Part shown: one piece after another, positions 7,203 through 19,694 of the stretch | Layout: every line of letters begins with the position of its first letter | How positions within the stretch are numbered: the first letter of the stretch is position 1 | Virus record (IMG/VR): IMGVR_UViG_3300026186_000008 | Span: 1 to 24,599 of that record | From: a virus | Strand: one strand, 5' to 3' | Length of the DNA: 24,599 nucleotides | Made by a program: the position numbers and the translations under genes | The notes under the pieces: generated by a model | Told to the model about the DNA's origin: nothing | What the model saw: the letters and a program-made list of their open reading frames with translations, nothing else | Database searches by the model: none

Positions 7203-7299
7203 AGAAATGCTAATGGCAGGTCAGAGATTTGAAAAAACTTTATTTGATAAATATTGCTTCAGGTACGAAATGGATGAAATTAGCCTTGACAAAGGCTAG
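7192..7299 (+). CDS. Small hypothetical protein, 35 aa
   Basis: A 35-residue ORF, starting MTIKEMLMAGQRFEKTLFD, with AAGGAAAG just upstream of ATG 7192 and an 11-nt overlap with the previous gene. Its last codons and its stop (TAG 7297-7299) are formed by the -35/dyad part of promoter P1, so coding and control sequence share the same bases. Small size limits confidence. Confidence 0.4.
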   Translation: MTIKEMLMAGQRFEKTLFDKYCFRYEMDEISLDKG

Positions 7300-15451: not shown

Positions 15452-15554
15452 AGAGAAAAATGATGATCAAATGGCACGATATATAGCATCACGCAATCGT
15501 GTTTTAAAAGAAATTTTAAAAAGATTGAAATTAGCCTTGACAAACGCTAGCTGA
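15441..15554 (+). CDS. Small protein ending in promoter P2, 37 aa
   Basis: A 37-residue ORF overlapping the previous stop, starting MKNKEKNDDQMARYIASRNR. It is basic and helical. Its last seven codons are formed by the conserved P2 block, ending in GCTAGCTGA, so the promoter is embedded in coding sequence, as at P1. No strong SD; coupling is likely. Small size limits confidence. Confidence 0.4.
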   Translation: MKNKEKNDDQMARYIASRNRVLKEILKRLKLALTNAS

Positions 15555-15566
15555 ATATGGTATAAT
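15532..15566 (+). promoter_or_regulatory. Promoter P2 with operator-like dyad
   Basis: -35 TTGACA (15537-15542), 18-nt spacer, -10 TATAAT (15561-15566) with upstream TGG. The dyad TAGCCTTGACAAACGCTA (15532-15549) has one mismatch compared with P1. Transcription should start near 15573, giving an 18-nt leader with purine-rich SD before ATG 15591, and would run into the tmRNA and the genes after it. Confidence 0.85.
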
Positions 15567-15590: not shown

Positions 15591-15824
15591 ATGTTTAAGG
15601 CAAGAGTTGATATGTTGAATCCTAAGCTTGAGCTTGAAGTTGTGACTCCGACTTATGATGAAACAGTGAAATTGTTGGATTCTCTTATTGAAAAGTTGAA
15701 GCCAAAATCAAGTGATGTCTATTCATCAGGATATGATATCAAATTAGATGTATTAGAAAATGATAGTAGTGGATTGAAGATTACTACTTCGGATGAAAAA
15801 CTTAATACTCATATGGACTTGTAA
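15591..15824 (+). CDS. Small protein upstream of tmRNA, 77 aa
   Basis: A 77-residue protein beginning MFKARVDMLNPKLELEVVTP, with alternating strands and a helix DETVKLLDSLIEKLKP, suggesting a compact alpha/beta fold. GGAAAAGGG and AAAAAGG lie before the ATG. It is the first gene after P2 and its stop abuts the acceptor end of the tmRNA, so RNA processing must cut close behind it. Function unknown. Confidence 0.65.
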   Translation: MFKARVDMLNPKLELEVVTPTYDETVKLLDSLIEKLKPKSSDVYSSGYDIKLDVLENDSSGLKITTSDEKLNTHMDL

Positions 15825-16145
15825 TCGCTTGAGTTTGAGTTGTTGGTATTTTGGACGCCGGTTCGACTCCGGCCAGCTCCACCATTATGGGGCTGTAATT
15901 GGAATTCGACAGGATATGACAATGATGAGGACAAGATTACCTGTGGTGGCAACAGCCAGAAAGTTGCAAACAAACAATTGGCAACAACCAATTAAAAATG
16001 GCTGCTTAAAAGAGATAGCAAGCCGGGGTTTGGTCAATACCTGTCAACAGAAATTGACCATTTTAAATCACATTCCCTTGGTGATACCAAGCTGATGTGA
16101 TGAAGGATAGCCGGCCGTCCTATAAGATACAAGTGGCCGGCGCGA
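15825..16145 (+). ncRNA. ssrA: Circularly permuted (two-piece) tmRNA
   Basis: tmRNA that rescues stalled ribosomes. The 3' acceptor part comes first: TTTTGGAC, T arm GCCGG-TTCGACT-CCGGC (15857-15873), CAGCTCC (15874-15880) and encoded ACCA. After only TTAT (15885-15888) comes the 5' part: GGGGCTG (15889-15895) pairs with CAGCTCC over 7 bp, then TAATTGGAATTCGACAGG, as in bacterial tmRNA 5' ends. Best tag frame: GGC 15980 to TAA 16007-16009, GNNQLKMAA, with an A-rich strand before it and the stop in hairpin GGCTGCT/AGC-A-AGCC (P5). Later: hairpin 16031-16060, nested hairpin 16067-16101, and a GC-rich pseudoknot (AGGA/TCCT, GCCGGCC/GGCCGGC, 16104-16141). The outer ends are estimates. Maturation would yield separate acceptor and coding RNAs. 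Confidence 0.92.
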
Positions 16146-16154
16146 TTTAAAAAT

Positions 16155-16421
16155 ATGGAAAATATATTCGGTATTGTACTTTCGGTGTCATTTAGTGTGG
16201 CTTATATTCCACAGATAATAAAAATGATTAATCGAAAGAGTTCAGCTGATGTTAGTTTGATGATGTTGATTATTAATGGCATAGGTTATTATTGTGGATT
16301 GGGATATGTCTTAATGAAAGATTTGAATGCATTTTGGTTGTGTTTTAATTATGTATCAGGGTTGATAATGACCCTTTTATGTATTATCATGTGGTCAATT
16401 TACAAAGGAGATAAAGTATGA
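16155..16421 (+). CDS. SemiSWEET-like PQ-loop membrane protein
   Basis: An 88-residue protein with three transmembrane helices (about 3-22, 34-56, 60-82) and the PQ-loop signature SVAYIPQIIKMINRKSSADVS, with Pro19-Gln20. Size and layout match bacterial SemiSWEETs, which dimerise to form a sugar facilitator. Substrate cannot be told from sequence; other PQ-loop proteins carry amino acids or act as receptors. No SD is present: the ATG lies about 10 nt after the tmRNA. Its stop overlaps the protease start by 4 nt, so the two are coupled. A metabolic transporter in a phage is unusual and may alter sugar flux in the infected cell. Confidence 0.8.
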   Translation: MENIFGIVLSVSFSVAYIPQIIKMINRKSSADVSLMMLIINGIGYYCGLGYVLMKDLNAFWLCFNYVSGLIMTLLCIIMWSIYKGDKV

Positions 16422-17559: not shown

Positions 17560-18261
17560 ATGAAAACGTTTAAACAATATCAATATGATTCAAATATTTT
17601 AACTTATGATGATTGGGGCCCTGACAGTGATAATAATAATGCAATTACTGAAGCTGGATTGGCTAGGATTATTCAGAAAGTTAAAGTAGATCAAGAAGAT
17701 TTCATTATTATTACTGCTTATCGGGGTGAATTTGATAAGAAAGAAAATATTGCAAGAAATCGTGATTTGAGGGGTTGGTTTAATCGTCAAGAAATGGGTG
17801 TGTATCAATTAGTCGGGCATTGGCGTGAGTGTTCAATTGAGAATGTTCCTTACGATCAATGCCCAGCTAATAAATTGGTTGATGTAGTTGAACGTTCATA
17901 TCTTGCAGTTAGACCTGATACTATGTCCACTAAAGATTTCTTCAGCAAGTGCAAATTTCTTACTAAGAAATGGAAGCAGGATGGTTCTGTAATTCGTATA
18001 CAAGAATTGTTTGGTGATGAAATTCAAATTTTAGAAAAGAGTGGTAACACGTTTGGTATCGGATCAGGAATAAGCTTAGGTAAGATTTCACAAGCTTATA
18101 GTCAACATGTCAAAAAATTAAATACACCATTTGTTTTTGAAGGTGTTGAAGTTCCATCTACTAATTTTGGTAAGCAGATAGCTGAAAAATATAGTTTCAA
18201 TTATCCTGTTGGTATTTGGGATGATTTGAAATCATGGGAAAGTATTGTTACTAACATTTGA
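17560..18261 (+). CDS. DUF3293-like protein, 233 aa
   Basis: A 233-residue protein with SD GAGGGAG. MKTFKQYQ is a start common among T4-like phage proteins. Residues 45-120 resemble DUF3293: FIIITAYRGEFDKKENIARN, then GVYQLVGHWREC, then a VERSYLAV strand. The EN-x-ARN motif after a buried strand is the best marker. The C-terminal third (VEVPSTNFGKQIAEKYSFN) is separate. The family has no established function. The assignment is from memory of the pattern and should be read as tentative. Confidence 0.5.
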   Translation: MKTFKQYQYDSNILTYDDWGPDSDNNNAITEAGLARIIQKVKVDQEDFIIITAYRGEFDKKENIARNRDLRGWFNRQEMGVYQLVGHWRECSIENVPYDQCPANKLVDVVERSYLAVRPDTMSTKDFFSKCKFLTKKWKQDGSVIRIQELFGDEIQILEKSGNTFGIGSGISLGKISQAYSQHVKKLNTPFVFEGVEVPSTNFGKQIAEKYSFNYPVGIWDDLKSWESIVTNI

Positions 18262-18705: not shown

Positions 18706-18849
18706 ATGATTATTGGAGCTGAAAGGATATATGTAAATTATCAAGAAATAATTAAGCAAAAGCTAAAAACTGATCGGAAGATAGTTAAGAATGTTTCTAA
18801 ATCTGTTAAGTCAGATAATAATTTGAATAAACGTAAGTATAGGAAATGA
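18706..18849 (+). CDS. Small basic protein, 47 aa
   Basis: A 47-residue Lys-rich ORF from ATG 18706, starting MIIGAERIYVNYQEIIKQKL, ending with KSDNNLNKRKYRK. It lacks a strong SD. It ends 14 nt before the chosen start of the flagellin homologue, and its stop overlaps an alternative flagellin start (ATGA at 18846). Charge suggests nucleic-acid or surface binding. Confidence 0.45.
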   Translation: MIIGAERIYVNYQEIIKQKLKTDRKIVKNVSKSVKSDNNLNKRKYRK

Positions 18850-18863
18850 AAGAGGTAAATTGT

Positions 18864-19694
18864 ATGTTAAGTGGTATAACCGCACAGACTTTGGGTAGGT
18901 ATCAAGAAGCAACTAGAATGGTTGAGGAAACTATGTCTAGGCTGGCATCTGGAATATCTGATATTGGTTCAGCTGATAAGATTAGGGTGGGCAGAATCAA
19001 TAATACTATCCATACTTTACAAACAGCACATAAAGTTGTTAAACAGAATCAGGATTTGTTGGAATCAGCACTGGCAGGATCTGATAGTATTACATCTGTT
19101 GTTGTTAAAATGAAAGAGGTCGCAGCCGAAGCTCAGAATGATGAATTGACATCATCACAACGACAGTCGTTGATGGATGAATACAATGAATTAGCTAAAG
19201 AGATTGATTATGTTGCCAAGAATACTGAGTATGACGGAACAGAATTGATCGATGGTACTTTTGGAACCAAGAGTTTTATCATCGATGGTGTTAATAGTGA
19301 TCAAACAGTTAGTGTTGAATTGGGAAATTTAACATTAGAAGGGTTGCAGATTGGTGGATATACTGATGGTCAGGGTAATATAGTTGTAGCATCTAAATTA
19401 GACACTGTATCTGATGCACAAGATGCAGTGACACGATTGGAAGCCGCCCTTGTCACTTTGGAAGGCGAGCGATCTAATCAGATAGCTAAGATAGAAAGGT
19501 TTGATTTTACAATTGCTCATATGGAACGTATGATTGGAATTAATGAAGAATCTATTGCTACCATTAATGATTTTGATGAAGCATCAGAGATGGCTAAGTT
19601 GACTAGTTATCGAATTGAACAACAAACAGCAATTGCATTGATGGCTCAAGCGCAACAATTATCTGCTAACGTACTACAATTGTTACAGGGTTAA
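18864..19694 (+). CDS. Phage-encoded flagellin homologue
   Basis: A 276-residue protein with the D0/D1 pattern of bacterial flagellin at both ends. N-terminal: MLSGITAQTLGRYQEATRM, then MSRLASG (flagellin ERLSSG), a long helix, and the D1 hallmark EIDYVAKNTEYDGTELIDG leading to KSFIIDG (flagellin EID..T.FNG..LLDG..F.VG). C-terminal: EEASIATI..., then MAKLTSYRIEQQTAIALMAQ and LSANVLQLLQG, matching the flagellin end helix and its QANQ..NVLQLL close. The central D2/D3 domain is nearly absent, as in minimal flagellins. I chose ATG 18864 (AGAGG 8 nt upstream) over ATG 18846. No FliS or FliW is nearby. It could be a virion appendage, a decoy or an acquired host gene. Confidence 0.85.
   Translation: MLSGITAQTLGRYQEATRMVEETMSRLASGISDIGSADKIRVGRINNTIHTLQTAHKVVKQNQDLLESALAGSDSITSVVVKMKEVAAEAQNDELTSSQRQSLMDEYNELAKEIDYVAKNTEYDGTELIDGTFGTKSFIIDGVNSDQTVSVELGNLTLEGLQIGGYTDGQGNIVVASKLDTVSDAQDAVTRLEAALVTLEGERSNQIAKIERFDFTIAHMERMIGINEESIATINDFDEASEMAKLTSYRIEQQTAIALMAQAQQLSANVLQLLQG

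Follow-up and report, generated by a model that had tools for sequence, protein, structure and literature searches.

The window, a linear viral fragment of 24.6 kb (24,599 nt; IMGVR_UViG_3300026186_000008), contains on its plus strand, at positions 15821-16141, a complete and intact gene for a circularly permuted, two-piece tmRNA (Table 1). As evidenced by a cmscan search of Rfam, positions 15820-16009 match the full model (1-213) of the family tmRNA_permuted (RF04321) with 80.7 bits against a gathering threshold of 47 (E 2.8e-14), and this is the only RNA family that reaches gathering level anywhere in the window. ARAGORN likewise called a permuted 'tmRNA*' at 15792-16100 with the tag GNNQLKMAA*, and the structure supported by our analysis extends from about 15821, in helix P2, to about 16141, at the end of PK4. 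A first-pass annotation of the fragment had placed a circularly permuted tmRNA at 15825-16145, close to these limits, and both its assignment and the ARAGORN check that it proposed were borne out.

The DNA presents the 3' (acceptor) piece first, followed by TTAT and then by the 5' piece, in which the tag and the four pseudoknots lie. The arrangement described in the first-pass annotation, an acceptor end with T arm, CAGCTCC and encoded ACCA lying ahead of a 5' end that begins with GGGGCTG, is present with all its elements at 15857-15895, and the strands CAGCTCC and GGGGCTG form seven pairs, G3-U70 among them. GGGGCTG (15889-15895) is followed by TAATTGGAATTCGACAGG, and the D-like segment behind this acceptor strand reads GGAATTCGACAGG. 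The fold of the window tmRNA has an MFE z-score of -4.30 relative to shuffled sequences. Removal of the TTAT linker by tRNA-type processing is expected, and the linker measures 3-5 nt across all members of the clade described below. Note that an alternative tag, read from the GCA after GTT (ANKQLATTN*), was considered and rejected, as only the G...MAA* frame is kept in the relatives.

Table 1. Features of the permuted tmRNA locus, in window positions.
Feature	Position	Strand	Details and basis
Sigma-70-like promoter	15537-15566	+	TTGACA-18-TATAAT, TG before -10; 12/12 consensus matches
77-aa ORF	15591-15824	+	Stop TAA (15822-15824) overlaps first tmRNA helix (P2 strand)
Acceptor (3') piece	15821-15884	+	RF04321 alignment, pair counts; P2 3' strand from 15821
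T arm	15857-15873	+	GCCGG-TTCGACT-CCGGC
Acceptor 3' strand	15874-15880	+	CAGCTCC
Encoded ACCA	15881-15884	+	
Intervening sequence	15885-15888	+	TTAT, 4 nt, between encoded ACCA and GGGGCTG
Coding (5') piece	15889-16141	+	Acceptor 5' strand, D-like segment, P2 5' strand, tag, four pseudoknots; 3' end predicted
Acceptor 5' strand	15889-15895	+	GGGGCTG
P2 5' strand	15935-15940	+	
PK1	15944-15967	+	Stems UGGU/GCCA and GCAAC/GUUGC; helices 6 and 7 of pair count
Tag frame	15980-16009	+	GGC AAC AAC CAA TTA AAA ATG GCT GCT TAA = GNNQLKMAA*, resume codon Gly; ARAGORN
PK2	16026-16059	+	GGGU/ACCU and GGUCAAU/AUUGACC, invariant CCTGTCAACAGAA loop; helices 8 and 9
PK3 region	16067-16101	+	Stem AUCACAU/AUGUGAU; helix 10, 69% paired in alignment
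PK4	16105-16141	+	GGA/UCC and GCCGGCC/GGCCGGC; helices 11 and 12

In pattern scans of IMG/VR, an acceptor region like that of a permuted tmRNA occurred in at least 119 stretches, a few of them evidently non-tmRNA; a short intervening sequence was present in 76 stretches, and the PK2 loop motif of the window gene in 58, many of which are other tmRNA types. ARAGORN gave 145 permuted calls among the 228 viral loci fetched. With such genes frequent in viral contigs and already published for phages (PMC9004378), a high novelty of the locus is not supported. Besides the window, the clade to which the gene belongs comprises eight distinct relatives in uncultivated viral contigs (loci L019, L066, L094, L002, L003, L032, L312 and L327), three of which recur with the same tmRNA at a second locus (L094 = L108, L002 = L030, L003 = L168). 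The tmRNA of L019 is nearest to that of the window, with 93% identity over 352 nt; its contig belongs to IMG record 2786546756, which is numbered differently from the metagenome records. The gathering level of tmRNA_permuted was passed by all six clade loci scanned first and likewise by the 5'-truncated loci L312 and L066. Permuted order and short linker are kept by all relatives, and ACCA is encoded in all aligned clade members. A DNA search with the window tmRNA found only short matches to the tRNA-like domain in named phages, and as judged from this comparison the clade is new in that nothing in the named-phage collection searched matches it closely. Two further observations concern other loci. 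L002 and L030 have identical tmRNAs, but in L030 the tmRNA is separated from the next shared gene by an additional gene of about 280 aa. In a second, very compact viral group with permuted calls (L007, L013, L045, L050, L071, L087, L092), the D-like segment and the tag leave little space for PK1 between them, and the tags read, for example, GEQVEMAMAA or GAQVEMAMAA.

Conservation of the structure was assessed in a MAFFT alignment of seven sequences, two of them 93% alike, for 65 named pairs in the acceptor, T, P2, PK1, PK2, PK3 stem and PK4 helices. Standard pairs occupy 90.1% of the cells, two-sided changes are found at 26 of the 65 pairs, and the covariation score is 0.394, as compared with 0.180 +/- 0.019 in shuffles (reached by 0 of 500). 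Paired fraction, two-sided changes and covariation score were each unreached by any of the 500 shuffles; the number of further pair types, one of five measures, was not above that of the shuffles, 413 of the 500 being as high. In slid versions of the structure the paired fraction falls to 39-48% and the covariation score to 0.04-0.10, a comparison that favours the original structure in so far as it was drawn from the window sequence. PK1, PK2 and PK4 are backed by two-sided changes, and helix 12 of PK4 is 100% paired in all sequences with four pairs changed on both sides; the PK3 stem is less clear in the same alignment. Stem 2 of PK1 and the PK3 stem are only about 70% paired, which we think is caused by misalignment in MAFFT. 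Inspected by eye, the sequences form good stems at both places, and the PK3 stems do covary, with TATAATC/GATTATA in L003 versus ATCACAT/ATGTGAT in the window. The alanine identity pair G3-U70 is invariant (7/7, columns 65/79).

The tag frame, its glycine resume codon and the ...MAA end are constant in nine distinct genes, and the inner residues vary: GNNQLKMAA in the window, GNNQLPMAA in L019, GEYNQLPMAA in L066 and L094, GNDYELQMAA in L002 and L327, GNSYELQMAA in L312, GNTINYAMAA in L003 and GNSINLPMAA in L032 (five called by ARAGORN, the others read from the sequences). A glycine resume codon is known from 30 other tmRNA sequences (PMC1168896) and was called by ARAGORN in some other phage loci as well, and is therefore not unique to the clade. 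From the covarying structure, the kept tag and the invariant G3-U70 and ACCA it follows that the gene is under selection and no decayed fragment. The first-pass annotation had named the lack of any covariance match, or decay to a fragment, as the outcome that would speak against it; neither was found, and helices, tag and pseudoknots are complete and conserved. The same data bear on the idea that the RNA is a decoy, blocking host trans-translation through titration of SmpB or occupation of stalled ribosomes, like the RNA of mycobacteriophage DS6A. A phage RNA with only a tRNA-like domain has indeed been reported to inhibit endogenous tmRNA (PMC4131195; PMC11915505), but a decoy needs neither tag nor pseudoknots, whereas here the pseudoknots covary and tag frame, glycine and MAA end are conserved; we consider this role very improbable.

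The 30-nt promoter element upstream of the gene occurs nearly unchanged at window positions 7286, 15537 and 19703 (+), and is also present in L019 and 10 further viral stretches (11 in all). It reads AGCCTTGACAAA(C/G)GCTAGCTG(A/G)ATATGGTATAAT, with the spacer conserved too and an inverted repeat around the -35 box. The region holds as many promoter-like sites as shuffled sequences do on average; it is the recurrence of the element in the window and in other viral DNA that speaks for a phage promoter, and the copy at 15537-15566 is presumed to be an early promoter of a unit of the 77-aa ORF and the tmRNA. This ORF has no match in Pfam or PHROG. In L019, L003, L032, L094 and L327 the upstream gene likewise ends 48-49 nt before the same acceptor position, although the genes differ. 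The small upstream ORF of L032 has no detectable similarity to the window ORF, and the 77-aa neighbour was rejected as a general tmRNA partner for the clade, as its place is taken by a ligase-Ia-like gene in L094 and by a cytidylyltransferase-like gene in L003.

Directly 3' of the tmRNA the window encodes an 88-aa PQ-loop membrane protein (16155-16421, +), also found in L019; in the other relatives the genes at this place differ from it. Further downstream the window encodes a protein that weakly matches the S-adenosylmethionine lyase family (17560-18261, +; E 2e-4, below cut-off) and possibly serves in anti-restriction, and another with flagellin N- and C-terminal domains (18846-19694, +; Pfam E 7e-12 and 8e-11). 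Several relatives, L003 and L094 among them, likewise have flagellin-like genes downstream of their tmRNA. In several relatives flagellin-like, MINTYG and SPYDDWG proteins are encoded near the tmRNA, and this shared set of related phage genes suggests inheritance within a lineage. It likewise stands against the notion that the locus is a functionless host ssrA remnant, left by imprecise prophage excision or copied as an attachment site. Elements often integrate at tmRNA genes, and tmRNA gene fragments do occur in prophages (PMC9004378); our DNA search with the window tmRNA did return short ssrA-end matches in enterobacterial phages. However, both pieces, tag and pseudoknots are complete here and covary among relatives, all of which share the permuted order and short linker, and no integrase is present among the window proteins examined, a part of the ORFs. 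A remnant is thereby largely refuted and would seem to be the least probable explanation of all.

The carrier is a T4-like phage, as the first-pass annotation had stated. The window encodes a gp32-type single-stranded DNA-binding protein, a baseplate hub, a MoxR-type ATPase and a CobT-like peptidase, traits shared with T4-like cyanophages; an exonuclease is also among its proteins. The gp32-type protein is closest to cyanophages, at about 50-63% identity, and the CobT-like peptidase is common to cyanophages and Pelagibacter phages. A search for SmpB in the window and in five contigs of clade relatives, all of them fragments, found no such gene, so that host SmpB and AlaRS are presumably used; the search took in L301, a locus outside the clade.

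The first-pass annotation had further expected the gene to hint at the host lineage, and had proposed the alpha, beta and cyano tmRNA models for the covariance check. This check succeeded with RF04321 only: the window gene is below gathering on all three host-type models (RF01849, RF01850, RF01851), the best score under relaxed thresholds being 69.9 bits with beta_tmRNA (RF01850) against a gathering threshold of 84. Three relatives, L002 (64 bits), L327 (63) and L003 (52), narrowly pass the alpha model RF01849 (gathering 50). In BLAST searches with the L002 tmRNA in three classes (385, 369 and 194 genomes), nearly all matches were to the tRNA-like domain, the best being 85-87% over about 61 nt in the cyanobacterial set; among the remaining matches at least one, L356, is an ordinary tRNA. 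No bacterial source can therefore be named, and the gene, as far as such comparisons reach, does not identify the host. Note that this calls for caution in general: host lineage should not be read from the type of a phage tmRNA, and the window gene fits no host-type model at threshold.

We favour, with a probability of roughly 90%, the reading of the locus as a functional phage-encoded, circularly permuted tmRNA gene that is kept by one T4-like phage lineage. Transcription from the phage promoter would yield a single precursor comprising the 77-aa ORF and the tmRNA, from which host tRNA-processing nucleases would cut out TTAT, leaving two RNAs joined through their acceptor and P2 helices. Host AlaRS would charge the molecule via the G3-U70 pair and, with host SmpB, it would enter ribosomes stalled on broken mRNA, a situation that is likely frequent while host and phage mRNAs undergo degradation. 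Addition of Ala-GNNQLKMAA would then recycle the ribosomes, to the presumed benefit of the phage, and the truncated product would be degraded by host ClpXP-type proteases.

Either rescue or re-tagging by the virus, as suggested in the first-pass annotation, would be plausible. That a working tmRNA should serve mainly for re-tagging, with a tag unlike the host's that shifts which products are degraded, rather than for extra rescue capacity, appears unlikely to us. Most of the other permuted tmRNAs fetched, from phages and bacteria alike, have tags of the AND...LAA type, from which the G...MAA tag of the clade does differ, but ClpXP could still plausibly recognise a C-terminal MAA as a degron, and MAA occurs in bacterial tags too, such as ANDERFAMAA in the Accumulibacter loci L222 and L234. 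No difference from the host's own tag can be claimed. A more far-reaching proposal, about equally doubtful, would see in the clade a phage-specific lineage long split from bacterial permuted tmRNAs, combining the two-piece form with four pseudoknots and a virus-specific, glycine-initiated tag that alters protein turnover in infected cells. The significance of the gene is that at least one lineage of uncultivated T4-like phages stably keeps a permuted tmRNA whose structure and tag are under selection, which makes viral trans-translation a testable function rather than an accident of gene capture.

Among known systems, the cultured cyanophages S-CAM1 and S-SSM7 (L354, L355) share the permuted order, and their tRNA-like domain is 85-90% identical to that of the clade member L002 over about 60 nt. 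They do, however, pass cyano_tmRNA (128 and 109 bits), which the window gene does not, and their tags begin with alanine instead of glycine. Their cyano-type permuted tmRNAs, at L354 2956-3224 and L355 2959-3261, are left unannotated in the records or are covered by a hypothetical protein. The tmRNAs of mycobacteriophages Bxz1 and Wildcat and of Bacillus phage G are of the standard one-piece form. These three have been described as phage-carried tmRNAs (PMC4131195), and the 2025 tmRNA database holds 79 bacteriophage tmRNAs of all forms (PMC11915505). The Caulobacter two-piece tmRNA was described without PK4 (PMC1168896), whereas the clade has a PK4-like knot.

A two-piece tmRNA was reported by Buchholz et al. 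2022 (PMC9004378) in the OM43 methylophage Melnitz and related pelagimyophages, together with 53 calls of the two-piece form from phage genomes (50 marine or aquatic); 17 of the 47 contigs clustered with Melnitz carry such calls. Melnitz resembles the present case in having a complete permuted ssrA on a marine T4-like myophage, with early expression presumed. By description the two are set apart: Melnitz ssrA groups with alphaproteobacterial genes and has a glutamine riboswitch in its 3' domain (PMC9004378), whereas the window gene is below the alpha gathering score and has no riboswitch match in Rfam. The window gene is a well-supported further case of the phage permuted tmRNAs reported since 2022.
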